The position numbers and the translations under genes were made by a program. The notes below the pieces were generated by a model. The model was not told where the DNA came from. It saw nothing but the letters and a program-made list of their open reading frames with translations, and searched no databases. From Spirochaetaceae bacterium (GTDB taxonomy: Bacteria; Spirochaetota; Spirochaetia; DSM-27196; SKKC01), in the NCBI GenBank assembly GCA_007694005.1, contig RECN01000103.1, positions 1 through 64,000 on the forward strand: a DNA stretch of 64,000 nt, given 5' to 3'. Below, piece by piece: positions 9,001-46,005 of the stretch (position 1 is the first letter of the stretch; every line of letters begins with the position of its first letter).

Positions 9001-11114
9001 TTTTACCAGATGGCGGTTCCGAACGAGGCGTCGAAGTGACCGGGTTGCACGAAGAAGCACGGCTGGGCGAGTACGAGCGCTTCGTCGTGTACATCCATAC
9101 CGGGACGGTCCCGGAGGATAAGACGGTGTCCGTCGAGCTCAGCAGTGGTTCCGACGGGCGTAACGCGATTTCCGCCACGTTTAATCTGCCCCCGAGCGCA
9201 AACTGGCAGCGGGTTGAAGTAAATACCTCCACGGGCCGTGTCACCCGCTACTACCGGGAAAACAGCTCGACTGCCGATCTCAAAGCAGAGCAAATCGGGA
9301 CTGCTGAGCTCGACCGGATGACCCCGATACGGCGTACATCCATCAGCCTGTCGTCCTCAGCGGAAGACGACTGGACGGTCTACCTCGATGAACCGCATCT
9401 CGCCGGGAGTCGCAGAGGTCTCGACGGCAGTTTCAGCGCCGATCTGAGCTATCAGGGGCCAGAGCAGTGGTTCGTGTTGCCGGGTGGCGTTCAAGCAGGC
9501 AGGTTCACGTTCGATTTTGCAGGCACGGTAGACGCTTCCCGGGTCGACACAGGCGAAACGCCGGTTCGTGCCGACACGATACGCGTCGACGGGAGTAGCG
9601 GTATCAACCTTGGTACACTACGCGTCGAGCTCGACGCGGACTGGGTGTACGCCCCTCCTTTCGATGAGCAGATTCTGCTTCTCGGCCACGGCATCTCAAC
9701 GGCCTCGCCGTGGCACGGGCTGACCGCATCGGAAACCTACACGCGCAGCATGACTGGAGTCGGAACGACGGTCGAGCAACATCTGCTTTCCTCAGCGCTT
9801 TCGGCTGCCCCCTGGAGTTCGCGTGCATCCGCTTCACGGAGCAGCCGCAATGACCGGTATCAGAAACAGCAGAGCGCATCATTTGCGCACGCCCCGTTTA
9901 CCGGCAGCGTCGGACTCGCACAGGCGGGTCGTCGCGATGCGCTCAATCCCGATACACCCTATTTGCACAGCTGGATGGCGTCGTTCCCCGGTCTGCTCCC
10001 GGCGCAGGATGAGACGGTGACACGAAGAACCTTTGAAGGCCGCTTCGCCCTCAGGCCGACGTTTCAATCAGTATCTCCGTCGCTCGCACTCGACAGCCAG
10101 TGGACGGCCCTGCCTGCAGTCCCGCAGCTTTCTGCGAACTCGGGGGGCAGAATTGAGCTTGGACTTGAAGCCTTCGGGGATTCGGGCGTACGTCTGACCC
10201 CGTTTTACCAGCGCAGGCTCACGCTCACCGAAACGAATCGGTCACTTTCGACCTACCAGGACGACATCGGGGTCGTCGCTGAGTCCCTCGGACCGCAGGA
10301 AAATATCATATACCGGTCGGTTCCGTTTCTCGAGCTCTTTCCAGGCAACGCTTCATCGGTCCTGTCTTATATCGACTCCCGGCGCGCTGCGACGCGCTAC
10401 ACGCCTTCGGCGGGCATAGAGTTCCGGCGACCCTTCGGAACACGCTTGATGGATCTGGTTGTACCGCATTTTTCCTCTGTCGAAGTTGCCCGGGAGTACC
10501 GGGCGGAAGACGACAGCACGGATACCACCGGCAGAATCACCCTCGAATCGCGCGCTCTCGCGGTAAACCTCTTCGGCTCGCTTGGTGCCTATCCTCTCAC
10601 CGACATGTTTCGGACCGATGAATACGAGTCGCGCATACGTGTCCGGCTCGATTACCCCGACCGTCTTCGGGACGTATTCCAGCAAAAGTACCAGGCAGAC
10701 TTCGAATGGAGGGTGTTTCCGTCCAGTTCTACCGAGATCAGCCTTCTGAACGAGACGACGATAGACCGTGGTGTGCGCGAAGGTTTTGAGCATCGCACAC
10801 GGCTTTCCGCCACGCTCGAGCACGACGACAGTGGTTTTGCAGAAGGTATTCGCGTTCCCCTGACCTACGAGCAGTCACGCCTCCGTTCAGAACACGATCT
10901 CGAACTCGTAGTCCGCCGCACGGAAGCACCGACTGCGACTGAGCTGCTCCGAATCACCGCAGGCACACGCCTGCTCGCACTGTACGACAATACGCTCCGC
11001 ATTACGCTCGGAGGGAGAATCGGCTACGAGATAAGTGGAGCATGGACCGACGACCTTCAGACCGTTGAGCGACTCGCCGTTGAGTTGCGACTCGACGGCA
11101 GACTTCGGTTTTAG
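6024..11114 (+). CDS. Very large exported beta-rich protein, probable outer-membrane or surface protein
   Basis: This 1696-residue protein begins with a signal peptide (hydrophobic core near residues 12-30, cleavage likely after KVQA). The body is almost entirely predicted beta strand. It has repeated jelly-roll-like stretches, a DLDGDGVTDRG calcium-loop-like motif near residue 790, and a long C-terminal third of alternating strands ending in LDGRLRF, with the terminal Phe typical of outer-membrane barrels. The size, modular centre and barrel-like end recall giant surface translocon or adhesin proteins such as SprA, but I cannot establish homology. Two smaller barrel genes follow in the same direction. 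Start is the first ATG; there is no strong ribosome-binding site. Confidence 0.75.
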   Translation: MNTFCRTVCLSLRTYIILFLCIGMCGALVKVQADETPGSDIRSASQASLFAYGRPDPRVEVFLDGSWQTGAALQLGLRRVATEDTTGSWTMDQVSLPGFASRTFSNIVDLTLSVRLDDRYYFETVFIDEFDLDSMLFGYDGQNDEFVQRVRIGLGPIAIDQYPGLAAGDAGASVFGIDTRFRGAASITEAMLRFEQTQPDLLRFQGGAELSRSRIPVLEYLRGRRFVLPDRPVSALRVFVEADSGIEAADGRRYRELDLNRDAVVSLSQGTVRLRDPARGRVLATYTTESGAVTGDLETGRDFVVPIDELGVLKSSGLAGAAGRFDATTATLGVARFNGSSDPEVSAGEEFLERIGRRSGRPEQDALFVEIDGSVAALLYELGYFSPFERLDAYAVSRPRDAGEFPDIRFVRRDGAAEFVPDSEPAARFSPEGDELLFGSLDPGNPSARYPFSAYPALYGPAAWPEPGSAAAPFDILLEVTDEVDTIRLPSGVVPGSVEMTRNGIPDSRFDVTAGGRVSLQSPALPQDVLEFRFRTMDDGASSGTIHGAVGSRRQLSERSELAAGLSYTRDLSENPFTERANESVAETTGTLSWRFTGESLQAGAGVHIRARLPDTTGVRRLFDLDAEQIAVPAQPWLSLPGAEPAPALEIRDRDGGEIVAPAADETDRTPWSGSRGRLLFRDYQTEGGFRAFGSDLDPDREYAYEDGSLTGPYVASRPGTDGNDARDRALVLDYELDALDDTGQWVSAQLQFGPDTLTQAPGGMRFRLETAGVDGSVDIYLQLGATAEDLDGDGVTDRGRSALQPALDFTHSDEGITLLAGGLPLPDGRGQAAREDILQRGFLAAEDGNRIVTRRIATDVGSTDNPAKDPYVVLTFSAAEVQRMGIPRAARLVVVRTDDPAPDDEPASGAVLLSDIAFFSRPLSARSIDTSGNTTADPRTVSTTTESDLRLPDGTRLPESSFLVMVHPETAIFRSGTAASTTNRVLAVRADLLPDGGSERGVEVTGLHEEARLGEYERFVVYIHTGTVPEDKTVSVELSSGSDGRNAISATFNLPPSANWQRVEVNTSTGRVTRYYRENSSTADLKAEQIGTAELDRMTPIRRTSISLSSSAEDDWTVYLDEPHLAGSRRGLDGSFSADLSYQGPEQWFVLPGGVQAGRFTFDFAGTVDASRVDTGETPVRADTIRVDGSSGINLGTLRVELDADWVYAPPFDEQILLLGHGISTASPWHGLTASETYTRSMTGVGTTVEQHLLSSALSAAPWSSRASASRSSRNDRYQKQQSASFAHAPFTGSVGLAQAGRRDALNPDTPYLHSWMASFPGLLPAQDETVTRRTFEGRFALRPTFQSVSPSLALDSQWTALPAVPQLSANSGGRIELGLEAFGDSGVRLTPFYQRRLTLTETNRSLSTYQDDIGVVAESLGPQENIIYRSVPFLELFPGNASSVLSYIDSRRAATRYTPSAGIEFRRPFGTRLMDLVVPHFSSVEVAREYRAEDDSTDTTGRITLESRALAVNLFGSLGAYPLTDMFRTDEYESRIRVRLDYPDRLRDVFQQKYQADFEWRVFPSSSTEISLLNETTIDRGVREGFEHRTRLSATLEHDDSGFAEGIRVPLTYEQSRLRSEHDLELVVRRTEAPTATELLRITAGTRLLALYDNTLRITLGGRIGYEISGAWTDDLQTVERLAVELRLDGRLRF

Positions 11115-11196
11115 ATGGTGACGAAAGATAGTATGGTGTAATGGATAAGTATTCGAAACAGGGATATATTCCTGATCACAAACACGGAGGAACGGT

Positions 11197-12645
11197 ATGA
11201 TGAAATCGCGCGTTCGTCGTATATGCGCAAGTTTTTTGAGCACGCTGCTCATCCTGGCGGCGGGGAGTCTGACCGCGCAGGAGAGCCCGGAACCGGCTGC
11301 CGGTGACGAAACCCCGCAGTTCGGATTCGGAGTGAATCTCGGGCTTGGGGTCAGAACCTTCAGGAACCCGGCCTTTCCGGACGATCCGGATGCATCGGAG
11401 TTCATTACCTGGCAAAGCCTGCAACTGAACCCGGATATATCCTTTGGTCAGCTCGGAGTCGGGCTCGATCTGACGCTTAACTATACATTCACCGGCGGCG
11501 AGTTTGGTGATGAGTTTACCCTCAGAGCCGAGGACTGGGTCCCGGACGACGATACGAACTTCTTCGAGCTGTATCTGCCGAAGATACGCTATGTACGCTG
11601 GGCTCAGAAAGGCGATCCGCTGTTTCTCCTTTTTGGACAGATTGACGGCGCCGTCCTCGGTAACGCATTTATAGTCGGTGGGTACACGAACACCCGTTTC
11701 CTGCCTGAGCGGCCCATATTTGGTGCCCAGGTGGACGTCGACGGCTCGCTGTTCAGCTTTCCCTACCTCGGTGTGGAGACCTTCGTATCGAACGTAGCGG
11801 CTTTCGATCTGTTCGGAAGCAGACTGTATGTACGCCCGCTCGCCGATCTCGATGTACCGCTGCTTCCGGCGCTTGAAGTCGGAACGACGGTAGTTACCGA
11901 CCGGGATCCCTGGTATTTCGAACGTCGTGATCCCGACAGCAGCCTGCACGAATCAACGGAAGCGACCAGTCCGGTCACTATCTGGGGTCTCGACCTCAGA
12001 CAGCCTGTTCTGAATACGCCGGTGCTGTCGCTCGCATTGTTTTCGGACGTAGTAAACCAGAACAATAACTGGGGAAGTATGGTCGGATTCGGAGGCCGAA
12101 CGCTCGGTTTCTTAAGCTTCGGTGCGCAGGCGCGTTTCCTCGGAGAAAACTTCATTCCTTCCTACTTCGACGGATCCTACGACCTGTTCAGGCGTTCACG
12201 CTACGAGGTCTACCGTGGAAATGCCACCGTCGAGTCTTACGTCGGGTGGCTTGCCTCACTCGGCTTTTCGTTCCTGCAGGATCAGCTGGTATTCAGCGCA
12301 TCCATGGAAGGGCCCTTTGAAGCACCCATTACCGATGTCGATGGCGACGGTCGCCCGACACCACAGGCCCTTGCCCGCAATCCCATCCTCCGTGGCAGTT
12401 TCCTGATCGGAGACGGGGTCATTCCGGGTATCACTGTCGGGGCAAACTACGAAAAGCGTAATCTCCAGACCATAGGCGACGTTATCAGTCCGGAGGATGC
12501 AGTCATCGGTGCCCGCATAAACTATCGCACCGGTCCTGCCGTCATCTCGCTTACCTATGATCTCACATACGATCCGAATCCGGCGGCAGACCGCAGTCCA
12601 TGGCAGATCAATTCGGGTCTCGAAACATCCATTGCGCTGTTCTAG
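11197..12645 (+). CDS. Putative outer-membrane beta-barrel protein
   Basis: This is a 482-residue protein with a classical signal peptide ending at LTAQ (about residue 30) and a C-terminal Phe (IALF). Short amphipathic strands fill the length, as in porin-like barrels. It is clearly paralogous to the C-terminal half of the next gene: compare LPKIRYVRWAQKGDPLFLLF here with LALKIRYLEFGEQRDPFFLK there, followed in both by a Gly-rich turn. GGAGG lies 6 nt before the ATG, and a second ATG follows immediately. Likely located in the outer membrane; substrate or ligand unknown. Confidence 0.8.
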   Translation: MMKSRVRRICASFLSTLLILAAGSLTAQESPEPAAGDETPQFGFGVNLGLGVRTFRNPAFPDDPDASEFITWQSLQLNPDISFGQLGVGLDLTLNYTFTGGEFGDEFTLRAEDWVPDDDTNFFELYLPKIRYVRWAQKGDPLFLLFGQIDGAVLGNAFIVGGYTNTRFLPERPIFGAQVDVDGSLFSFPYLGVETFVSNVAAFDLFGSRLYVRPLADLDVPLLPALEVGTTVVTDRDPWYFERRDPDSSLHESTEATSPVTIWGLDLRQPVLNTPVLSLALFSDVVNQNNNWGSMVGFGGRTLGFLSFGAQARFLGENFIPSYFDGSYDLFRRSRYEVYRGNATVESYVGWLASLGFSFLQDQLVFSASMEGPFEAPITDVDGDGRPTPQALARNPILRGSFLIGDGVIPGITVGANYEKRNLQTIGDVISPEDAVIGARINYRTGPAVISLTYDLTYDPNPAADRSPWQINSGLETSIALF

Positions 12646-34896: not shown

Positions 34897-35379
34897 TTAC
34901 GCTGCGTGTTTTCGCTGGTCCACCGACTGACCCGTTTTCTCTGATCGTCGCTTCGTGGTGGAGTCCGTTCCCAGAACGCTCAGCAGTCCGAAGACTCCAA
35001 TACCGATGATTGCGGCGGTGAGCCGTAATGTTGCTCGATTATCATTAAAAGTAATGGTGCGGTATACCAGACTGCCCGGGCTCATGGGCTCGGTTACATC
35101 TACCCACGACTCAACAACCAGGCGTCGTTCGTCAGCTGCAAAGAATCCAAGAGATCGGGCGTAGACGCGAAGCAGTTCACGATCGCGCTGGAGATCGTGG
35201 ATTCGACCTTCAAGCTCTGCGTTTCGTGTCGAGAGGTTCTCTATGTTTACCTCAAGCCTTTCACGATACGAGAGCAACTCACGTTCGTTCTGAACTCCTG
35301 AAACTCCAAACACATAGGCAAGGACAAGATAGACACAAACAGAACTGAGGGTGGCGATGAGCAGATGTAACTTGACCAT
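34897..35379 (-). CDS. FtsB/DivIC-like septum protein with extra C-terminal membrane helix
   Basis: This is a 160-residue protein: membrane helix 4-25, coiled coil about 31-70 (RELLSYRERLEVNIENLST), then RVYARSLGF, which matches the conserved A-R-x-L-G turn after the coil in FtsB/DivIC. These bitopic proteins assemble with FtsL and FtsQ at the division site. Unusually, a second hydrophobic helix (about 119-137) is followed by a basic tail, so both ends would be cytoplasmic. ATG 35379 is chosen because AAGGA lies 6 nt upstream; an earlier ATG at 35418 has none. Confidence 0.72.
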   Translation of the reverse strand: MVKLHLLIATLSSVCVYLVLAYVFGVSGVQNERELLSYRERLEVNIENLSTRNAELEGRIHDLQRDRELLRVYARSLGFFAADERRLVVESWVDVTEPMSPGSLVYRTITFNDNRATLRLTAAIIGIGVFGLLSVLGTDSTTKRRSEKTGQSVDQRKHAA

Positions 35380-35458
35380 GGTGATTCCTTGTCTGATTAA
35401 CGGTCTGGAAGCTTCCATGTATTAGCGCCACACAATTCTTTATATGTGACCCGTTTTA

Positions 35459-35488
35459 TTGACAGCTATTTAACCGGCGTCGTACAGT
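35459..35488 (+). promoter_or_regulatory. Sigma-70-like promoter of the DUF115 operon
   Basis: TTGACA (a perfect -35) at 35459-35464 is followed after 18 nt by TACAGT at 35483-35488 (four of six matches to TATAAT). It lies in the 199-bp space between the divergent FtsB-like gene and the acidic-protein gene. It would give a leader of about 85 nt before ATG 35579. The rest of this interval is A+T-rich with no other recognisable feature. Confidence 0.5.
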
Positions 35489-35578
35489 GAGAATGGTGTT
35501 TAAATTACGTGGATACTGCCGATATCTACCGTAAGAGCATCTGTAAAGATTCGATTTTATTCTGCAGGAGCATGGTGA

Positions 35579-37312
35579 ATGTCCGCTGAAGAGGAAAAGA
35601 AAGAATACACAGCCGACGACGGGGCCTTTGACAGCACCGAACTCGATGAATACGGAGTCTGGGTAAAGTCCGGGCCCGACGATCTCGACTCTGACCTGTC
35701 TGCGGACTCAGTGGAAAATCTGGATCTGGAAGATGTCGGGTCAGACGTCGAGTCAGGTTCACTCGACGCCTGGGCAGAGTCCGAGCAGGGAAACCCGGAG
35801 TCAGAAAGTCTCGAAGACGATCTCATGTCGCTCGACGACGCTGATTTCTCGCTCGACGAGAGCTTCGGTGACAATGAGCCGGATGAACTCGACAGCGAAT
35901 CTGATACGGCTTTCGACGAACTCAATGAAGACCTCTCGTTTTCGATAGACGAAGACGACATCGCCGACGATACCAGGGTAGATGACCAGGCAGGCGAGTC
36001 CGAACTCACCGCCGAAGAGGAAGCCCTTCTGTCGGAACTCGAAGAGGACGATAACGAAGAACCCGCCGCGATCGACGAAGAACCCGCCGCGATTGACACT
36101 GAGTCGAGTTTTGAGCTCGACGATTTCGACGATATCGAAGCGGTAACTCGCGATTTGACCGATGAACCACCGGAAGAGGCTGAGAAGCCGCAAGCCGCGG
36201 CGCGAGATGTTTCGCCTCAGGTTCTTGAGAAAATCGAGGGGGAACTCAGCGGTATTCGCACTGAGATTGCTGCCCTGAAGGCCGAACTCGCTGAGCTCTA
36301 TGGACTTCGCGACACGGTAAAGACGTCCGGGCCGGAAACGGAAACACCGGATGCACCGTCGACGGTGGAATCCGTGAGCAGTCCCGTAGAAGAGTTTGAA
36401 TCCGACGATTTATTCGTGCCGGATGAAGACGAAACCGACGCGACTACGATCTCCGACGTCCTTGCCGAGACCGACGATGAGTTCTTCCTGCCCCAGGATG
36501 ATGAAGAAGGCGGCGGATTTTTCGATGACGATGGTGATGAGACGATCGCACTCACAGGTGACGAACTGGACAACATCCTCAGTACCGCCGAGTTTACCGA
36601 GGAAGCGGGAAAACCAACCGAGTTCGAGGACGAGACATCGTTCGGACTGCCCGATACCGATGAACAGGATATTACCTTCGACGACCTCTCTGAGGACGAT
36701 TCGTTTGAGGAAGAATCGTTTGAAGAAAGCACCGTTACAATAGGAAGCGACATAGATGAGTTTGACGCGGCGGTCGACGAGATATCTCTTGAGCCTGATG
36801 ACGATTTAATCGGTCCGGATGAATCAGCAGATAACGAAGAAGTTGACGCGCTCGCCAGCATGGACCTCGAGCAGGAGCTTTCAGACATAGACGAGCTTAC
36901 CGACGAGGACGAGCCTGCCGGCGGGCAGGACATCCCCGACATCGACGGGATATCTAATGAAGACCAGCTTACCACCGAAGACGAGCTTGCCGACATAGAG
37001 GAATTTTCCGAAGAGGATATTTCCGACGACGATGAACTGGTCGCTCCGGTGTCGGAAGAAGTTCCAACAGAGGACTTTGAGGTCGACGAGCAAAGCGAGC
37101 TGCAACCCGATACCGACATCGAGGTAACAGACGAATCCACGCGCAACGTAGATGAGATCCCAAGCGGGCTTCGTGAAGAAATACGATCGGTACTGACGTA
37201 TATGGATCAGCTCCTCGAGTCGCTCCCCGAGGACAAAATCCGAGAGTTCGCCGAGTCCGAACACTTTGAGGTATATAAGCGGCTGTTCGAGGAACTTGAT
37301 CTGGAGCCCTGA
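35579..37312 (+). CDS. Highly acidic, largely disordered protein
   Basis: This is a 577-residue protein with no signal peptide or membrane helix. Most of it is Asp/Glu/Ser-rich low complexity with scattered hydrophobic residues, suggesting intrinsic disorder. A short coiled coil lies at about 216-245 (EKIEGELSGIRTEIAALKAE). The only conserved-looking folded piece is the last 55 residues (IPSGLREEIRSVLTYMDQLL, then LPEDKIREFAESEHF and a KRLFEELDL end). A 7-residue unit (EEPAAID) is duplicated. It is the first gene of a five-gene coupled operon with two DUF115 proteins, so a scaffolding role there is plausible but unproven. The neighbouring ATG 35571 lies in a different frame. Confidence 0.75.
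   Translation: MSAEEEKKEYTADDGAFDSTELDEYGVWVKSGPDDLDSDLSADSVENLDLEDVGSDVESGSLDAWAESEQGNPESESLEDDLMSLDDADFSLDESFGDNEPDELDSESDTAFDELNEDLSFSIDEDDIADDTRVDDQAGESELTAEEEALLSELEEDDNEEPAAIDEEPAAIDTESSFELDDFDDIEAVTRDLTDEPPEEAEKPQAAARDVSPQVLEKIEGELSGIRTEIAALKAELAELYGLRDTVKTSGPETETPDAPSTVESVSSPVEEFESDDLFVPDEDETDATTISDVLAETDDEFFLPQDDEEGGGFFDDDGDETIALTGDELDNILSTAEFTEEAGKPTEFEDETSFGLPDTDEQDITFDDLSEDDSFEEESFEESTVTIGSDIDEFDAAVDEISLEPDDDLIGPDESADNEEVDALASMDLEQELSDIDELTDEDEPAGGQDIPDIDGISNEDQLTTEDELADIEEFSEEDISDDDELVAPVSEEVPTEDFEVDEQSELQPDTDIEVTDESTRNVDEIPSGLREEIRSVLTYMDQLLESLPEDKIREFAESEHFEVYKRLFEELDLEP
36056..36097 (+). repeat. 21-bp tandem duplication inside the acidic-protein gene
   Basis: Two adjacent 21-bp units encode EEPAAID twice and differ by one base. 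A recent in-frame duplication, consistent with length variation in a disordered region. Confidence 0.8.
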
Positions 37313-38379
37313 TGGGTTTGATGAATCGGGTACTCCGTAATCCGGGGTACCAGCGAGAACGACACGAACACGAAATGGAGCCGACAGGAGCACCCGACAC
37401 GGGGGAGACGCTCGAAGCTCCATTGTCAACAGCTCGTGAGTTCGGTCCCGTACCCCAGGAGTCCGCCAGACGCCTCGATTACGTGTTAAACAGCCTTGAG
37501 ACCATTCCAGCCGGGATCGGGTTTCCAGGTGCGGTATTCGATCTACTCGTACATACCCTGTCAATCACCAGCGGCGCATTGCTGATACGCGACGTCGAAG
37601 ATAAACGTTTCAAGGTATGGGCCTCCTGCGGACTCGACCCGACAACCAGAGGGCGCTTAATCCTGAAACGAAAGGTGATTGATGAACTCGTTCCACAGCG
37701 GGTGTCGTATCTCGACGAAACCAGACGGGAACAGATGGGCCAGTATCTTTCTGTTCGTGAACGGAGTCTCCACGAACCCGTTCTGCTCTGTCGTTTCCAG
37801 ACGAGTTCGCGTCTCTGCGGAGTTCTCATTGTTTTTCGAAGTCCCGAACTGTTTGCAGATTCTGAGAATGCCGAACTGCTTCTTGCAGCTTTGAGCGAGC
37901 CTGTCGCGAGGATTATCAGCACCTATCGGGAAACCCCGTTGCAACGAATGATAAACCCTCTGATCCTGGACCCGAAGGATTTTAGGCGGAGCGTCCAGAC
38001 CTCGATGCGCAGACTACTGTCCTCCTCACACGGACTGGTCCTCGCATACATTAACCTCAGCCGCATAACCGGGTCTGTTTTATCCGTCCTCCCGACGGCT
38101 GACCGGTATCATGTAACGAGAGATATTCGGCTTATCGCTGCATCGATGTTCGCGGCAGCGGGTGATGTCACCATAATAGAGCCAGACGGACTCGTTGTTG
38201 CGGTTACGATGCCATCCGGCGAACACGGTGAACTCCTGATCGATCAACTCAGTGGACGCCTCGGCGCGCTGCTCCCGGAACTGCCTGGCCGGTTCCGTGT
38301 TGAAGCGCGCATAAGACAGTGGCCAATAGATTCGGACGATGCAAACAGTCTTCTGGACAGCCTGTTAAATCAGACGTGA
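37312..38379 (+). CDS. GAF-like protein with a degenerate cyclase-like C-terminus
   Basis: This is a 355-residue cytoplasmic protein. After a disordered N-terminus, residues about 60-205 look like a GAF domain (SGALLIRDVEDKRFKVWASC, then LCGVLIVFRSPELF and a final long helix). The C-terminal 140 residues (VLAYINLSRITGS, then DGLVVAVTMPS) follow the strand order of nucleotide-cyclase/GGDEF folds without any catalytic motif. It starts within the stop of the acidic-protein gene (TGATG) and its own stop overlaps the GTG of the first DUF115 gene. A sensory adaptor is the likeliest role. Confidence 0.65.
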   Translation: MGLMNRVLRNPGYQRERHEHEMEPTGAPDTGETLEAPLSTAREFGPVPQESARRLDYVLNSLETIPAGIGFPGAVFDLLVHTLSITSGALLIRDVEDKRFKVWASCGLDPTTRGRLILKRKVIDELVPQRVSYLDETRREQMGQYLSVRERSLHEPVLLCRFQTSSRLCGVLIVFRSPELFADSENAELLLAALSEPVARIISTYRETPLQRMINPLILDPKDFRRSVQTSMRRLLSSSHGLVLAYINLSRITGSVLSVLPTADRYHVTRDIRLIAASMFAAAGDVTIIEPDGLVVAVTMPSGEHGELLIDQLSGRLGALLPELPGRFRVEARIRQWPIDSDDANSLLDSLLNQT

Positions 38380-39830
38380 TTGACGTTTTTCCGTCCCGTG
38401 ATGGCGGCCTGACCGTATCGGTAGATTCGCTTCAACTGTACTCGAAGTACAATCCGTCGCTTCAGGTCAGGCGTTTCCTCGAAACGAAAAACCTGCAGAA
38501 TACGGGCTGCATAATAATAATTAGCGATGGTCTCGGGCTGATCGAAGAAGAAATCATCAGACTTGATACCGATGCCACATTGATCTCAATCGTTTTAAGC
38601 CGATACGTGTACTCGTATCAACCACGCTCCCTCGCGAATGCAGCGTGGATATACGATCCTGACGAACGATCCGATCACCCATCTCTCAAGGCGTTCCTGC
38701 GAAACCACCTGGGCAGAACCAACACCGCTACGCCACAGCTGCTGGTATGGGACCCTGCTGCGCGTGCATTCGAGAACGAGTACACTTCCACTTTCCCCCA
38801 CATCGAGACATTTCTCCGGCGAGAAGCTCACAGTCAGCTCACGACACGAGCATTCGGCCGGAAGTGGATCCGAAACATCACGCGTAATTTAACGAGCCCA
38901 CCTTCTCCATACCGTATTAACACGCTTCCTGAAACCGGAAAACCGGTGGTCGTGATAATCCCGGGTCCGAGTACAGATGAGTGCTGTGAGATCGTCTCCC
39001 GGTACAGAACCAGGGTCATTATCCTGACCGTTTCCTCGGCTCTCTCCGTCCTGAAATCGTGGTCAATAGTACCCGATATCGTTGTTCACACGGACCCCGG
39101 TTACTACGCGCGATTGCACTTTTCCCCGGGATATACCCCCGGGAAAGCAATTCTCTGCATGCCATTAACTGCAGCGGGTCCGAGAATACCGTTTCATGCC
39201 TGGTTCGCGTTCAGTAACGGTCTGAACGTCGAACAGGACGCCTTGAGATACGTAAACGCACCCGAGATCCGCATACCCGAGGCAGGAACCGTCACGGCGA
39301 CCGCTCTGAGAATCGCCGGGCGAATCAGTACGTACAGGACATTCGTCTGCGGTCTTGATCTATGCCTGCGAGATATACAATCACACGCGCGCGGCCACAG
39401 CTTCAGCAGCTGGATCTTGCCGCGTACAAGCAGGTTTTCGTCCGTCGAGCAGGCTTACCTTGAGCGTGCCGTACACGCTGATGGCGACGGATCAGGGTAT
39501 CGCTATGCTCCCAACCTGGACGTATACGCTTCATGGATCAGGGATTACGCTCGGGATACGCGCGATCTGTACCGCGTCGCACCTTCACCGGTCGATGCTG
39601 GAATGAACAATCTCAGTCTCAGTGCCTTTGATGCACTTCTCAGTCGCACACCGGACGCGGAGGATGACCTGGCCTATGCGGCACAGATCGACCCTCTTCC
39701 GTTCCTCCCTCCCGATGACGCAGGACTGTCCGTTGCCAGACGGTGGAATCGCCTCAGGCAGCAATCCAGTTCAGGGTCGGATCTTACGAACGAGTTACGG
39801 ACCCTTCTCGGCGATACGGAGACACTATGA
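38376..39830 (+). CDS. DUF115 / Maf-type motility accessory protein (first copy)
   Basis: This is a 484-residue protein. The N-terminal SLQLYSKYNPS block and the central VVVIIPGPSTDE nucleotide-sugar-like loop with DIVVHTDPGY are typical of DUF115 (MptE-like/Maf) proteins. Maf proteins transfer sialic- or pseudaminic-acid-type sugars to flagellins in other bacteria. The N-terminal region here (GCIIIISDGLGLIEEE) is shorter than in the second copy. GTG 38376 overlaps the upstream stop (GTGA). It is immediately followed by the paralogue, whose ATG overlaps its stop. No sugar-synthesis genes are in the window. Confidence 0.82.
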   Translation: MIDVFPSRDGGLTVSVDSLQLYSKYNPSLQVRRFLETKNLQNTGCIIIISDGLGLIEEEIIRLDTDATLISIVLSRYVYSYQPRSLANAAWIYDPDERSDHPSLKAFLRNHLGRTNTATPQLLVWDPAARAFENEYTSTFPHIETFLRREAHSQLTTRAFGRKWIRNITRNLTSPPSPYRINTLPETGKPVVVIIPGPSTDECCEIVSRYRTRVIILTVSSALSVLKSWSIVPDIVVHTDPGYYARLHFSPGYTPGKAILCMPLTAAGPRIPFHAWFAFSNGLNVEQDALRYVNAPEIRIPEAGTVTATALRIAGRISTYRTFVCGLDLCLRDIQSHARGHSFSSWILPRTSRFSSVEQAYLERAVHADGDGSGYRYAPNLDVYASWIRDYARDTRDLYRVAPSPVDAGMNNLSLSAFDALLSRTPDAEDDLAYAAQIDPLPFLPPDDAGLSVARRWNRLRQQSSSGSDLTNELRTLLGDTETL

Positions 39831-41488
39831 GGAGTACCGACGAGAGTCTGTTCCGTAAGAACATGGACGCGTTACGGAGCTCGGATGAGTTCCGGTCTCA
39901 AGACCTGAGACATCAGACGTTCAGGGACGAACTCGAACACGTGGAACCGACGCACGCGGTGTCGCTCATCGAGGGCCGGGGCAGTTTCTCAATTCCCGAG
40001 ATTCGAACCGAAACCTCACGCTATGCGCTCCACTCGAAGTACAACCCTGCACGCGAAGCGGAGCGGGCGGTCGACGCCGTTGACGCAAGGGGTACCCTCT
40101 GCGTGTTCGGACTCGGTGCGGCCTACCACATACGGCGACTCCTTGCCGAACCACGTGTACTACGGATTCTCGTGATTAGTGAACCGCCCGAAGTCGTACG
40201 TACTATCTTGAGCCTTATCGATCTCAGCGACGTTCTGAAAGATCGACGACTGCATCTCAGTACATCCGATTCTGTCACAGCTATACGAGGAACAATTACC
40301 ACCGGGCACGTTCCCTTTTTCTCATCGCGCATCACAGGTTTCCACCTGCCTGTATTCGCGCGCGTATTTCCTGACTGTTTCGAGCGATTTCGGCACGGAC
40401 TGGACGCTGCAATCGAGGATATCGCAGATGACCTGAGCACACAGGTCCGTTTCTCAAAATTATGGTTTCGTAACATCCTGCTCAACAGTGTGTCATCGGA
40501 CCGTATTGCACCGGCGTCACTTCCCGATTCACAAGCCGTTACGATCGTGGCAGCCGGACCCTCGCTAGATGAACACCTCGGAGAGCTTTCACGCACAGAG
40601 CATCATCTGATCTGCTGCGATACCGCCGCCCCCGCGCTGGCAGGCGCCGGCATCGCTCACGCGACAGTTATCTGCATAGACCCGTCCCTGTATGGATACC
40701 ACCATCTCCTGAACGGATTTCCCGACGATTCCCGGACAATACTCGACATCGGCACGCACCCGACGGTATGGAAGCAGGCACCACGACCTGCCGGCGTCGC
40801 GTCGCGCCATCCACTCGTGCAACTCATGACACCTCTTTTCGATCACCTTCCGGTCGTTCACTTCAGCGGTGACGTAACGAACGCCGCCGTATGGCTTGCA
40901 CGGTCCTTCGCGTGTGCACCGATCCGGGTCATTGGAGCCGATTACCGATGGACCGGTGGAAGACCGTACGCACAATCGACATATATTCCGAAACTCTTCC
41001 TTGGGTCGGGCGACCGCTTTGCTCCAGGGGAGTCAAAAACAGTTGCATTCATGTTCGATCGTCACCAGAAACTGGGCCTGCAATCCAACGGTGACTACGC
41101 AGTCCCTGAGTTCGATTCGCGTCGGAAGGCTCTGCAGAATCTTCTTGATACGCCTCTATCGTGTACCTTTGTACAGCAGCACAGGACCACGTCCGTAACG
41201 AAGGGGACTCCACCTCTAAAAAGGATTCTTCAGGGTGTATACGACCTGCTCGAACACGTACCGGAACCGGAGGGCGGTTCGTCAGGACCGGAAACCTACT
41301 ATACGGGCCTCGACGAAGATGGTCGGTCGGCCGCCCTACTTCTCGCCCCCCTTGCAACCCACATGGCCAGACGGTTTCAGGTGGGGTCGGAACATGATTC
41401 CATGTTGCAACACATGTCGGAGGCCCGCTGCTTTGCAAGAATGCTGATCTCACACGTGCATAGCTTGTCCGGATCACGTATACTGTAA
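39827..41488 (+). CDS. DUF115 / Maf-type motility accessory protein (second copy)
   Basis: This is a 553-residue paralogue of the preceding gene. RYALHSKYNPAREAERAV and CVFGLGAAYHIRRLL form the Maf N-terminal block, and VTIVAAGPSLDE at about 257-268, followed by ATVICIDPSLY, is the central DUF115 domain. VIGADYRWTGGRPYAQ, near residue 380, resembles the substrate-binding end of the domain. The predicted role is glycosyl transfer to flagellin or a related surface protein in the cytoplasm. The start is ATG 39827, overlapping the first copy's stop (ATGA). Confidence 0.87.
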   Translation: MRSTDESLFRKNMDALRSSDEFRSQDLRHQTFRDELEHVEPTHAVSLIEGRGSFSIPEIRTETSRYALHSKYNPAREAERAVDAVDARGTLCVFGLGAAYHIRRLLAEPRVLRILVISEPPEVVRTILSLIDLSDVLKDRRLHLSTSDSVTAIRGTITTGHVPFFSSRITGFHLPVFARVFPDCFERFRHGLDAAIEDIADDLSTQVRFSKLWFRNILLNSVSSDRIAPASLPDSQAVTIVAAGPSLDEHLGELSRTEHHLICCDTAAPALAGAGIAHATVICIDPSLYGYHHLLNGFPDDSRTILDIGTHPTVWKQAPRPAGVASRHPLVQLMTPLFDHLPVVHFSGDVTNAAVWLARSFACAPIRVIGADYRWTGGRPYAQSTYIPKLFLGSGDRFAPGESKTVAFMFDRHQKLGLQSNGDYAVPEFDSRRKALQNLLDTPLSCTFVQQHRTTSVTKGTPPLKRILQGVYDLLEHVPEPEGGSSGPETYYTGLDEDGRSAALLLAPLATHMARRFQVGSEHDSMLQHMSEARCFARMLISHVHSLSGSRIL

Positions 41489-41491
41489 GAC

Positions 41492-42718
41492 ATGAGTCGG
41501 ATTTTTCGGACGGTTCTCGTACTTGCCAGTGTCGTGATTCTGGCAGGGGTGCCAAGCCTTTTCGCGGTCAGGCTGTATCTGGACCGATCGAAACAGCAGA
41601 ATCTCGCGGAAACGCATTTCTCAAACGTGATTGCTGCGGCGACCCGCATCGTTGCCGATAATGACGGTAGTTCAGGAACAGGCCAGACCATTGCCCAGGG
41701 GCTGCAGGGTCTCTTGCGCCTCAACGAACGGCTTAACAGCATCGTTGTCCTTCGCCTCCACGGTGAGGTCGAATATGCATGGACGAGGGACCCTCAACGC
41801 GCTGCTCTGCTCAATGAGCCTGACGCGTCGCTCGGCGATTACAGCTTCGAGTCAAATCTGTGGCTCGAGCGCCTGACCGAAACCATACACGCAGGTCCGA
41901 TTCAGTTCGTCGTGAATGCCGAGTATCAGGTCCTCTACCCTGAGTCAGTGTTTCAGAATATCCGTGACACGCTCCTCACCATTATCGCATTTGCGCTGCT
42001 GTTGATCGTTGGCCTCATTGCAAGCCTGTCGGCACCCGCTCATGCGGTCCCGACACCGCACAAAGACACACACACGCCGGACAAGCGGACACAAGCAGAG
42101 CCGGATCCTGTACCGGAACCGGTGCAGGATCTCAAACCGGAACCATCAGACAGACACTCGCATTCGTCGCAAAACAACACGCACATCCCTTCTGCCACGA
42201 CGCCTCTGGTTTCGGAGGACTCAGGCATGTCTTTTGCGGAACACCTGAACCGGCGGCTTGATCTGGAATTACAACGCGCGGCGGAGAACGAACTCGATGT
42301 AACGGTCATATACGGTTCTGTCCTGGACAGCCATACCCAGGCTGCGCCGGAAGCTGCCGTCTTCGGCCGTCTGGTTCTCGAGTTTTTTCCGTTTGAAGAC
42401 CTCGTTTTTGATCTCAGTAAGGAAGAACCCGGACTGTGCTGCATAATACTACCAGGCATAGACCTTTCAGGCGCGCTGAGAAAAGCCCAGCGTTTCGTCA
42501 CGTTGAGCCGCCGCCACGACTCGGGCACCTTCCGCACGCGCCTGGGCGCATCGAGTCGAAACGGACGCCTCGTCGAGAGTGTTCGTCTGCTTAACGAAGC
42601 TCGCGAAGCACTGGGAAAAACCGACGATACCTCGCCCATAGTCGGGTTCCTCCCCGACCCCGACCGGTATCGTCGTCTGGTCAGAAACAGCGGAGACCGT
42701 TTTTCTGTGTCCGGTTGA
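41492..42718 (+). CDS. Membrane protein with degenerate GGDEF-like domain
   Basis: This is a 408-residue protein with membrane helices at about 5-27 and 159-180 that enclose a 130-residue periplasmic sensor-like region. A Pro/His/Asp-rich linker spans about 185-245. The C-terminal domain from 250 follows the GGDEF layout (SFAEHLNRRLDLELQRA, the GLCCIILPG strand, TRLGASSRNGR, and a final helix NEAREALGKT). At the signature position it has SKEEPG instead of GGDEF, and no RxxD inhibitory site is visible, so it should not make cyclic di-GMP. It starts 3 bp after the second DUF115 gene, closing the operon. Confidence 0.78.
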   Translation: MSRIFRTVLVLASVVILAGVPSLFAVRLYLDRSKQQNLAETHFSNVIAAATRIVADNDGSSGTGQTIAQGLQGLLRLNERLNSIVVLRLHGEVEYAWTRDPQRAALLNEPDASLGDYSFESNLWLERLTETIHAGPIQFVVNAEYQVLYPESVFQNIRDTLLTIIAFALLLIVGLIASLSAPAHAVPTPHKDTHTPDKRTQAEPDPVPEPVQDLKPEPSDRHSHSSQNNTHIPSATTPLVSEDSGMSFAEHLNRRLDLELQRAAENELDVTVIYGSVLDSHTQAAPEAAVFGRLVLEFFPFEDLVFDLSKEEPGLCCIILPGIDLSGALRKAQRFVTLSRRHDSGTFRTRLGASSRNGRLVESVRLLNEAREALGKTDDTSPIVGFLPDPDRYRRLVRNSGDRFSVSG

Positions 42719-42760: not shown

Positions 42761-43765
42761 TCACAAAGAGGAAAGAGCCAGCAAAAGTTCGTCGATGAGA
42801 TGGTCGAATACGAGAACGCCTTCGCGCATTTCGTGAAACTCTCCTGGAACGGAGGCAGGCCACATCAGACTTGCAGGGTAACCGCGTTCGCGTTCCGGGC
42901 CAACATGAACAGACAGCGGCCGTCCGGATGTTTCCAGATATATGTCAATCCGCATAATCGCGTCTTCTTCACGAACCGGTTCGAGCAGGAATGAGCCTCC
43001 CTCGAGACTCAGCAGTCGTGAAACAGCCGTTGCAGCCGCAGCTTCTGCCGCGCCGCCGCGTTCTGTTTCCGTAGTTGTGAATCCGCGTTCGAGCCGTTCG
43101 ATTTCAGCCTCTATCAGGCCGGTGAACCGCACGGAGCGGATCTCGGACCGGGAAACCGCTCCCCGGAACAGCCGATAATCGACAAACCAGTCCATGCCCT
43201 GCGACAGAATACGGCTCAAGCTGTCAGCAGTCGCATATACCGTGGTGCTTCCTTCTCCCCTGAGATAAAGAACTTCCATGGACGCCGATACACCGACGTA
43301 TACCCGGTGGCTTTCGTCGCCCGACCACAAACGGATAATGTATTCGCCCTGATTTAACGAGTCGGTAACATCAACGTGTCCGACGCCGAGCTCTTCGTGC
43401 CTGCCTTCATTCAGCGTTACCGTCCGTGCATCGTAGGTCGATAGAAACGATTCCGTAAACCCGAGAACCCGATCGGTACGTGCCGGGGCACCCGGTGTTC
43501 CGTCGCGACCGACACGGGGAGTCTGATTCACAGCTGTGTCGGGCTGCACGTCGGCAAGGAAGATAGTAAACGCTCCGTGGTATCCTATGACATCGATACG
43601 CGTTACATCTTCAGCTTCGAGGCCCTGGAACAGATCACGCTCGACGGCGCTATCGTCGTCTCTTCCAAGATCCGCCGTGGAATCGGTTAACACAAAGAGT
43701 ACGAACAGGAGCGCGAGAGAAATAGACACAGCAATTATCGTTCGTAGCCAGTACTTGTCACTCAT
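42761..43765 (-). CDS. DUF4340 domain protein
   Basis: This is a 334-residue protein with one N-terminal membrane helix (about 7-27) and a large periplasmic beta-rich repeat region. DUF4340 features are visible: IDVIGYHGAFTIFLADV, then FVDYRLFRGAVSRSEIRSVR, and the final IDIYLETSGRPLSVHVG strand pair. These proteins regularly accompany GldG-like proteins and ABC-2 exporters, as here, where it is the last of six minus-strand genes. It starts 18 bp after the GldG-like gene. The transported substrate is unknown. Confidence 0.85.
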   Translation of the reverse strand: MSDKYWLRTIIAVSISLALLFVLFVLTDSTADLGRDDDSAVERDLFQGLEAEDVTRIDVIGYHGAFTIFLADVQPDTAVNQTPRVGRDGTPGAPARTDRVLGFTESFLSTYDARTVTLNEGRHEELGVGHVDVTDSLNQGEYIIRLWSGDESHRVYVGVSASMEVLYLRGEGSTTVYATADSLSRILSQGMDWFVDYRLFRGAVSRSEIRSVRFTGLIEAEIERLERGFTTTETERGGAAEAAAATAVSRLLSLEGGSFLLEPVREEDAIMRIDIYLETSGRPLSVHVGPERERGYPASLMWPASVPGEFHEMREGVLVFDHLIDELLLALSSL

Positions 43766-43783
43766 GAGCTGCCCGCCCTGCGG

Positions 43784-45283
43784 TTAAGAACTCTGCCGAT
43801 TCCGCCTTCGCCGGACGGAAACAACACCTACGATCACCATTATACCCGGTAATACCCAAACGTTAAGCGCTTCAATTAACATGCCTGTAAACATGCGCGC
43901 GAAAGGCTCTTCTATGCGGTCCATACGAAGCACAGGAACCGGTGCGGGACTGAGTCGCGCGAGCCCGGACTCCCCTGCGATCCAGTCGATGCTACGTACA
44001 AGAAAATCGAAGTTTGCGTGACTATCCGTATACAGGACGAGATTGCTGAGAAAGTCGCTGTCCGCGCTTACAACGACCCTTGAGTCATCGTGAAAACCAC
44101 CTTCGTTCCAGGCGACCACGGCGTATATACCGGTACTGATCTCTCTATCCCGTTCTATCGATGCCCGGTTCACCGGATCAAGTATGAATGGTGGCCCCTG
44201 AAGCCAGGAGGATGTCGATGTAACGATAAGCGCTTCGGTGATTCCGCGTCCCGGTTCAGTGAGGCGCATCGGACTCGGCCAGAAAAAATCGACCGGCCCC
44301 GCGTTAACTCCAAGGGGATGCCCGGAATCGATATTTCGCTGGTCGGTTCGTACCCAGGGTGGGTACGCGAGCAGCTGACCCGAAACGAACTCGGGCGGGA
44401 AAAGGTTTGCTCGCGAATCAAGAAGTAATAAAGGCTCGACATGAACACCAAGGTGGCGCAGAAAACCGCTAAACGACTCGTTATGTATTTCCCGTGCCGT
44501 CAGACTCTGAATGTCAACGTCCAGACCGTCGAGCGCCAGAAAGGCCCCTGTCCCACGCTCAAGAGCATCCTGAACACGATCTGCAAGATCAGGATGAGGA
44601 TCCCGGCTGCCGAGTACAAGGACGACATCGGGTCTTGCCGACTCAAGGTCTCTGTGGTCCACGATCTCAAGCTCGTACAGACGATCCAGCGCATCGAGCA
44701 TAGCGCCGTACTCTTCGGAGATTCGTTCTCCTCTGCTTCCTGAAACGACCAGCACCCGCAGCGGTGTGTCCCGTGTCACCGAGAAGATGGCACGGGTGAC
44801 TTCGTACTCCACTGCTCCCGGATCAATCAGCGCAGGTATCACGATACGTCTATCGAGATATCGGATCTCAACACCGCTGTACAGGTGGCCCGGTCCTGCT
44901 CCGCCCTCGGCCTGTGGAACTGCCCGTTCAACCTCGATTCCAAGACCTTCAAGTTGCTCCGGTGTCAGTCCTCCGTCGACAATACGCTCGACGGTCACAG
45001 TTCCGCCGCCAAGTCTCTCGTATTGCCGCAGAAGCTGGAAGATCTGCTCTGTGCGTGGGCTCGCCGCGTTTAGAAACCCGCTCACGAAATAGCGGATCTC
45101 CAGGGGTTCATCGAGCGTGGTGATCAGTTCCTTCGTCTGCGATCCGAGCGTAAAAACCCGTCCGGGAGACAGATCAAGCTGTATACCGACACGCGAAAGT
45201 AAAAGTACTCCAAGTAGAACAGATACCGAAAAGAGCACGGTAAATACCCATTGCACGATCGCCGTTTTCTTCCGTCGGTTCAT
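43784..45283 (-). CDS. GldG-like ABC transporter auxiliary protein
   Basis: This is a 499-residue protein of the ABC-type uncharacterised transport family (GldG, DUF4350/PF09822-like). It has a membrane helix at about 12-31, then DLSPGRVFTLGSQTKELITT, which matches the family's N-terminal block. A Rossmann-like periplasmic domain follows, and a C-terminal membrane helix (about 470-489) precedes a basic tail. In Bacteroidetes GldG works with GldA and GldF in gliding; in spirochaetes the same trio must do something else. It begins 2 bp after the permease gene. Confidence 0.88.
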   Translation of the reverse strand: MNRRKKTAIVQWVFTVLFSVSVLLGVLLLSRVGIQLDLSPGRVFTLGSQTKELITTLDEPLEIRYFVSGFLNAASPRTEQIFQLLRQYERLGGGTVTVERIVDGGLTPEQLEGLGIEVERAVPQAEGGAGPGHLYSGVEIRYLDRRIVIPALIDPGAVEYEVTRAIFSVTRDTPLRVLVVSGSRGERISEEYGAMLDALDRLYELEIVDHRDLESARPDVVLVLGSRDPHPDLADRVQDALERGTGAFLALDGLDVDIQSLTAREIHNESFSGFLRHLGVHVEPLLLLDSRANLFPPEFVSGQLLAYPPWVRTDQRNIDSGHPLGVNAGPVDFFWPSPMRLTEPGRGITEALIVTSTSSWLQGPPFILDPVNRASIERDREISTGIYAVVAWNEGGFHDDSRVVVSADSDFLSNLVLYTDSHANFDFLVRSIDWIAGESGLARLSPAPVPVLRMDRIEEPFARMFTGMLIEALNVWVLPGIMVIVGVVSVRRRRNRQSS

Positions 45284-45285
45284 AT

Positions 45286-46005
45286 TCAGTATCCCCGGGA
45301 AATATATCCGTGGACTGCGACTCGTAGTAACACGGCGGTCATCCCGAAGAAGTACAGAACCGCATTTCCGTCCACCAGCCCTTGAACGAAGGGCGCGTGC
45401 CGGTAGTCGAGGCTGATCTGTCGGGCGAGACGGACGATGGTACCATCAAGGCCTATTGCGCTGCCGATAGAGTCTGCGTAGCTGAGTATTGCGAAAAACG
45501 CTATGGAACACATCAATGCAACGATCTGGCTGTCTGTCATCGAAGACACACAGATCCCGAGGGCAACGAGCACCATGCTCACCATAATGAGGCCCGTAAA
45601 ACGCACCAGAATAAGCCCCACTTCAACCTGCCCCATGAGAGACATGGAAAGCGGAATCAGCAGATCAAGCAGGAGAAAGATGGAGATAAAACTCAGAATC
45701 GCCGTCGCCTTTGACAGGACGGTTACTGCGGGGGACAGAGGAAGCGTGCGCAGAAGTAGATCCGCACCGGTCCGGTACTCCTCAGAAAAACTTCGCATAG
45801 TCAGCGCAGGGACAGTCAAGGAGAGGACGGCGAGCCAGCTCGAAGAGAGACCTGACAGATCCATGATCCCTGCCTGCATGAATGCTCCGAAACGGAACTG
45901 ATTCATGACGGGAACCACGAGCATGACAATCCCCGGGATCCATCCGTGCGAAGAGTACAGGTACACTCGAAACTCACGTTTGTACGCAGCAAGAAACCTG
46001 ATCAT
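45286..46005 (-). CDS. ABC-2 type permease (GldF-like)
   Basis: This is a 239-residue integral membrane protein with six predicted helices and the ABC-2 layout. The first helix follows an amphipathic YKREFRVYLYSSHG segment, then comes SFSEEYRTGADLLLRTLPLS, the conserved coupling region of GldF-like permeases. Its ATG overlaps the stop of the ATPase gene (TGATG). It forms the transmembrane part of a transporter with the neighbouring ATPase, GldG-like and DUF4340 proteins. Confidence 0.9.
   Translation of the reverse strand: MIRFLAAYKREFRVYLYSSHGWIPGIVMLVVPVMNQFRFGAFMQAGIMDLSGLSSSWLAVLSLTVPALTMRSFSEEYRTGADLLLRTLPLSPAVTVLSKATAILSFISIFLLLDLLIPLSMSLMGQVEVGLILVRFTGLIMVSMVLVALGICVSSMTDSQIVALMCSIAFFAILSYADSIGSAIGLDGTIVRLARQISLDYRHAPFVQGLVDGNAVLYFFGMTAVLLRVAVHGYISRGY

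Follow-up and report, generated by a model that had tools for sequence, protein, structure and literature searches.

The window, by which we mean the whole 64-kb stretch of spirochaete DNA that was analysed, contains five consecutive genes on the forward strand, here called g1 to g5. The initial annotation had described them as a tightly coupled operon, and both the gene positions and all junctions proved to be as it described: g1/g2 join at TGATG, g2/g3 at GTGA and g3/g4 at ATGA, and g5 begins 3 nt past the TAA of g4. Unless stated otherwise, all features given below are on the forward strand.

The tight spacing is kept across loci. In all 53 loci having both genes, g3 and g4 are at most 20 nt apart; the same holds for g2/g3 in 45 of 49 loci, for g1/g2 in 42 of 58 and for g4/g5 in 23 of 45, with an opposite-strand gene in many of the wider g4/g5 gaps. 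Because the gene pairs sit within 20 nt of each other across loci, the coupling is not due to chance. The five genes follow one another as g1-g2-g3-g4-g5 in almost all genomes examined of the order and also throughout the class Spirochaetia, in dozens of families, and scattering of the five genes among relatives within this class was not seen. The operon is thus conserved far beyond what a single sequence could reveal. It is intact and in the same order in the genomes taken as Treponema denticola and Treponema pallidum. In T. denticola it was found about 10 kb from flaB1/flaB3; an identity with the T. denticola flaA operon (TDE1712-1716), considered by its description in the literature, was set aside.

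The first gene, g1 (35579–37312), encodes an acidic low-complexity protein of 577 residues with 37% Asp/Glu and 3% Lys/Arg, of which both ends are conserved. The N-terminal motif YGVWVKSGPDDL (35651–35686) follows the pattern YG.WV, which a pattern search located, mostly as YGVWVK, in the majority of 44 g1 proteins. The conserved C-terminal domain (37148–37306) is about 55 residues long, has a mean column identity of 72% in the alignment and is matched in profile searches. This 55-residue terminus is present phylum-wide, and its profile was found in 155 of 248 genomes of the class. A search of it against the PDB gave no significant match.

Divergent to g1 lies a gene for an FtsB/DivIC-like protein (34897–35418, reverse strand; PF04977, 37.4 bits), a conserved neighbour whose homologues form a cluster seen at 38 loci. 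A weak sigma-70-like site (35459–35488; 10 of 12 positions matching) lies in the gap between genes ahead of g1, promoter-like sites being no more frequent than in shuffled sequences. Neither Rfam nor tRNA scanning of the window gave a hit. The genes adjoining the operon are non-flagellar, and no flagellar genes directly flanking it were found within the class.

Two proteins with degenerate GGDEF regions

The gene g2 (37312–38379) codes for a protein of 355 residues, in which an approximate GAF-like region (37474–37842; weak profile match to 3ci6, E 0.021) precedes an approximate degenerate GGDEF region (37975–38274; profile match to 4wxw/4wxo, E 0.0025–0.003). The product of g5 (41492–42718) has 408 residues. 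Its two hydrophobic spans bracket a predicted periplasmic region, and a proline-rich linker and a degenerate GGDEF region (approximately 42230–42676) are also present, the GGDEF-like domain following both spans. The latter region yields profile matches to 6zxm, PleD and DosC; for the g5 family profile the E-value against the GGDEF structures 6zxm/PleD is 7.8e-6, and the T. denticola g5 protein matches TIGR00254 (E 4.5e-8).

Neither g2 nor g5 of the window has a Pfam match of its own, g2 remaining below the GAF cut-off. Homologues of g2 from other classes do exceed the Pfam cut-offs, two for GAF (loci L154 and L159; GAF_3, E 4e-11 and 2e-8) and one for GGDEF (L152; 28.1 bits). The GG[DE]EF motif was found in none of 54 g2 proteins and in none of 48 g5 proteins. 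Together with the GGDEF profile matches, this bears out the annotation of both proteins as cyclase-like folds that lack the catalytic motifs. The GAF assignment of g2 holds for the homologues above the cut-off and is tentative for the protein of the window, given the weak 3ci6 match. A close paralogy of the two degenerate GGDEF domains received no support from profile comparison. AlphaFold2 models of g2 and g5, computed with one homologue as input, were unusable (mean pLDDT 32 and 36).

As a membrane sensor combined with a GGDEF fold without active-site motif, g5 resembles known degenerate GGDEF sensors. Unlike these, the operon retains two dissimilar pseudo-GGDEF proteins class-wide in a fixed arrangement with Maf genes. 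The placement of dead GGDEF domains beside modification enzymes is an unusually old and strictly kept usage.

Two paralogues of the Maf/DUF115 family

The initial annotation of g3 and g4 as two paralogous DUF115 proteins was confirmed by profile analysis. g3 (38376–39830, GTG start) encodes the shorter, divergent paralogue of 484 residues, with an MptE-like domain (PF01973) at 38868–39371; g4 (39827–41488, ATG start) encodes a glycosyltransferase-like protein of 553 residues, with the same domain at 40529–40954. The PF01973 scores of g3 and g4 (52.3 and 67.0 bits) are above the gathering cut-off of 34.6, and 23 of 24 g3 homologues match this family. For Maf_flag10_N (PF20157), g4 stays just under the cut-off (20.9 versus 23.5 bits) and g3 has no match.

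A search of the PDB with the single g4 sequence returned nothing useful. The g4 family profile matches the Maf structure 5mu5 with an E-value of 1e-19 in two regions, the N-terminal one included, and the g3 family profile does so with 1.1e-11. The central Maf motifs GPSL, D and GxD are conserved columns of the g3 and g4 family alignments, and both families align to 5mu5. The g4 orthologue of T. denticola matches FlagModPseD (E 4e-27). MptE, 6-hydroxymethylpterin diphosphokinase, is an archaeal pterin enzyme; it shares the PF01973 domain, and the g4 profile also matches its structure 8sd5. However, g4 matches Maf best and its distribution tracks flagella.

g3 and g4 are homologous across 383 columns. 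In a tree calculated by a quick method and containing long branches, g4 lies on one side of a branch with support 98, apart from g3 and the other Maf copies across families. As the tree separates them in this way, a recent tandem duplication as the origin of the pair was rejected; g3 and g4 are ancient Maf/DUF115 paralogues. DUF115 genes number about four per genome and fall into separate clades; the genome of the window has two outside the operon.

Compared with the Maf/PseD proteins (Aeromonas Maf1, Campylobacter Maf/PseD, 5MU5), g4 is similar in its N-terminal and central regions and motifs, and g3 in its central domain. The operon differs from these systems in having two ancient tandem paralogues, one of them (g3) shortened, whose translation is coupled to that of an acidic linker and of GAF/pseudo-GGDEF proteins.

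Association with flagella and flagellin glycosylation

Among 248 genomes of the class, 170 contain both DUF115 and FliG, two only DUF115, 39 only FliG and 37 neither. The g1 gene co-occurs with FliG in 155 of these genomes and never occurs without it. DUF115 is absent from flagellin-less lineages and from Borrelia, all copies having been lost together. Outside the Borrelia-like family there are ten genomes with FliG only; the six that were checked (G047, G054, G056, G081, G112 and G145) all lack flagellin.

In T. denticola FlaB1-3 carry a glycan of 450.2 Da, and flagellin glycosylation is needed for motility; it has been reported for T. pallidum too. Two serines of T. denticola FlaB (in VEVSQL and DRIAS) are reported to be glycosylated (PMC7431986), and filaments cannot be assembled without the glycan (PMC9481697). 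Both serines are kept in all 17 flagellins examined from DUF115-bearing genomes of the class, the three of the window genome included. In the Borrelia family they are replaced by Glu and Asp in five of five flagellins examined. Some flagellins of other classes lack one of the two serines despite the presence of DUF115. In the literature searched we found no paper which ties the five genes to the T. denticola glycan or names its genes or control, and for T. pallidum TP0172-TP0180 only annotation fusions and no function.

Flagellar glycosylation, as suggested by the initial annotation, is in line with the co-occurrence with flagella and the correlation with the FlaB sites, and in three genomes of other classes g1 directly follows fliS. 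Against a role in glycosylation alone speak g1-g2 without g3-g5 elsewhere, and g1 with or without g5 in flagellin-less genomes; the non-flagellar flanking genes and the other-class flagellins that lack a serine also count against the module. We give an even chance to the operon being a dedicated flagellin O-glycosylation module of Spirochaetia with g1, g2 and g5 as scaffold and regulator. The resemblance to Treponema flagellin glycosylation lies in the same class, the intact T. denticola operon and the serines kept in the FlaBs of the window genome. The Maf-type transferase g4 and its divergent paralogue g3 would modify FlaB in the cytoplasm prior to export, probably at the conserved serines of the D1 region. 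In Aeromonas, Maf acts ahead of export (PMC4065374). g1 would serve as a flexible acidic linker with conserved ends and g5 as a periplasmic sensor with two membrane spans and a dead GGDEF domain; with g2 they might keep the transferases close to the export apparatus at the membrane, or switch them there. Control would probably proceed via dimerisation of the pseudo-GGDEF domains and not via synthesis of c-di-GMP. As the operon is also present in T. pallidum, it offers a short list of candidates for flagellin glycosylation, two transferases and three helper proteins.

A more far-reaching and rather doubtful version is that the dead cyclase-fold pair and the acidic tether set the time and place of flagellin glycosylation by the two Maf enzymes, with feedback from the state of the periplasmic filament on subunit modification in the cytoplasm. 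If so, this would be a spirochaete-specific control device, in which one of the two cyclase-fold proteins reaches into the periplasm of the rotating flagella.

Alternatives to the glycosylation module

A serious, if less probable, explanation is that g1-g2, possibly with g5, form a separate older system, for example one that organises the place of flagellar export, the cell pole or the envelope. The transferases would have joined it later, in Spirochaetia, because of a common place or time of work, and g2 and g5 would exert no control over them. This would fit the finding that in the majority of the remaining classes of Spirochaetota g1-g2 lack neighbouring g3-g5, the pair adjoining fliS-fapA or the ATP synthase operon in such genomes. 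The FtsB-like neighbour of g1 points the same way, as do certain flagellin-less genomes that retain g1 with g5 (lineage f17) or g1 alone (f19). However, all 24 other-class genomes with g1-g2 have DUF115 genes elsewhere, and g1-g2 may therefore still serve them. The class-wide constant order with its overlaps and the restriction of g1 to FliG-containing genomes of the class also argue against a separate system.

It is unlikely that g3 and g4 modify a target other than FlaB, such as the sheath protein FlaA, a different protein of the flagellum or a glycan of the envelope, and that other DUF115 copies handle FlaB. The several DUF115 clades, the two extra copies in the window genome and the strong divergence of g3 from Maf would agree with such a division of labour. 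Against it stand the PseD-like g4 of T. denticola and the joint disappearance of every DUF115 copy in flagellin-less lineages and Borrelia, although Borrelia, which is also a single clade, cannot distinguish between the copies because all of them are lost there.

A housekeeping operon of five functionally unconnected products is very improbable: unlike genes are often joined in spirochaete operons and the genes on either side of this one have no link to flagella, but the same order recurs over dozens of families with g3 and g4 invariably close, and g1 and DUF115 share their phylogenetic profile (151 genomes with both, four with g1 only).

Conservation of the five-gene block

The five genes and their junctions were found at 35579–42718 of the window (plus strand), exactly as the initial annotation had described them, with g3 starting at a GTG (38376) and g4 at an ATG (39827). 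The genome has a close relative in the MAG Spirochaetaceae bacterium CSSed162cmB_249. The order g1-g2-g3-g4(-g5) was seen, contig ends excepted, in every neighbourhood examined around the correct locus within the taxonomic order, and the same block is present in other families of the class. Within the class the genes are conserved jointly and not scattered. The spacing between g3 and g4 is at most 20 nt in 53 of 53 loci. Most genomes are MAGs, and absence from incomplete ones carries little weight.

The block also occurs in genomes of 2,843,201 bp and 1,139,633 bp, which we take to be Treponema denticola ATCC 35405 and T. pallidum; neighbouring genes in the latter resemble the tro operon and TpN15. 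From their position after the TpN15-like gene, its copies (locus L102, genome G119) would be about TP0172–TP0179. According to published papers, the first Nichols annotation had split one gene into TP0172-173 and another into TP0174-176.

Next to g1, in divergent orientation, lies an FtsB-like gene whose cluster is found in 38 loci. In a number of loci from many families, an opposite-strand gene, presumably AmmeMemoRadiSam-B/MEMO-like, lies between g4 and g5; one example is at 10733–11569 (minus strand) of locus L054, with counterparts at similar places in other loci. Downstream of the operon, DUF4340/Gld-type ABC transporter genes (42761–46005, minus strand) adjoin it in many genomes. Long Ser-rich antisense ORFs over g1 (35557–37146, minus strand) probably reflect the sequence composition that its acidic codons impose.

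Domain composition of the five proteins

The assignment of g3 and g4 to DUF115 holds, as both exceed the PF01973 (MptE-like/DUF115) cut-off. Their class-wide family profiles matched the solved Maf protein 5MU5 with E-values of 1e-11 for g3 and 1e-19, in two regions, for g4. T. denticola g4 matched the flagellin modification protein PseD (E = 4e-27, under the full-length cut-off of the model). The two proteins align with each other over 383 columns. In a tree built by a quick method and having long branches, g4 is separated from g3 and the unlinked Maf copies by a branch with a support of 98, which supports an old paralogy and no fine detail.

In g5, a pair of hydrophobic spans and a proline-rich linker accompany a domain related to GGDEF (T. 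denticola g5 against TIGR00254, E = 4.5e-8). Protein g2 has a GAF-like N-terminal half and a GGDEF-related C-terminal half, calls which depend mainly on homologues from other classes passing Pfam cut-offs. Domain borders are approximate throughout the block. The proposed lack of a cyclase catalytic motif was borne out: GG[DE]EF occurs in none of 48 g5 and none of 54 g2 proteins, and neither is therefore expected to make c-di-GMP. Predicted structures of g2 and g5, built with one near-identical homologue, were uninformative. The acidic, low-complexity g1 has an N-terminal motif of the YGVWVK type and a C-terminus of 55 residues with 72% mean column identity.

Association with flagella and flagellin

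Among 248 genomes, the g1 C-terminus and FliG occur together in 155, g1 alone in none, FliG alone in 54 and neither in 39; the corresponding values for DUF115 are 170, 2, 39 and 37. As the genomes are related, Fisher p values on these counts are not independent tests. The 39 genomes with FliG and without DUF115 comprise 29 of family f27, which we take to be Borrelia-like, seven of f19/g27, and G047, G054 and G112. Among these ten outside f27, a flagellin gene was absent from all six checked, so the FliG-like matches there do not mark normal flagella. In the phylum sample, g1 was found in none of 12 genomes of f16, a presumably Sphaerochaeta-like family also without FliG, and g1 was seen without FliG in six genomes, all of them MAGs of 54–88% completeness.

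Borrelia-family flagellins have E and D at two serine positions (five of five examined). Within the class, 17 flagellins from genomes with DUF115 were examined, three of them from the window genome, and every one keeps both serines; in other classes most flagellins, but not all, do so. These serines, both reported to be substituted in B. burgdorferi, belong to VEVSQL and DRIAS, which are among the T. denticola glycosylation target motifs (PMC7431986). The pattern agrees with a putative DUF115-dependent glycosylation of FlaB, without telling which of the four DUF115 copies acts. In T. denticola (locus L174), flaB1/flaB3, FlaG-like and FliD-like genes lie about 10 kb from g1.

The best-supported reading of g1–g5 is a flagellin O-glycosylation module. 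The putative transferases g4 and g3 would modify FlaB in the cytoplasm ahead of export, the order known for Aeromonas Maf1, which acts on flagellin before export (PMC4065374). Proteins g1, g2 and g5 may keep them at the membrane or regulate them there, possibly as a complex responding to a signal. In T. denticola, filament assembly and motility require the FlaB glycan (PMC9481697), and such a need would explain the strict operon conservation.

Partial operons and other classes

Within family f17, G217 has a flagellin, DUF115 and a full-length g1, after which comes an ORF truncated where the contig ends. In G054 and G112, which lack flagellin, the operon is reduced to g1 and g5, suggesting a role of these two that does not need flagellin; there (L166, L167) g1 adjoins g5 although g2–g4 are lost. 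In the small flagellin-less genome G081 (f19), g1 (L165, 5886–6509) is short but retains the conserved C-terminus, and it sits beside a YrdC-like gene.

In other classes, g1 often adjoins g2 without g3–g5, and DUF115 matches, two to six in each of 24 of 24 genomes tested, lie mostly away from this pair. For this reason g1-g2 look like the older pair, to which the class-level operon adds the transferases and g5. In three such genomes (L154, L161, L164), fliS is directly upstream of g1, followed in L154 and L164 by g2 and a FapA-like gene.
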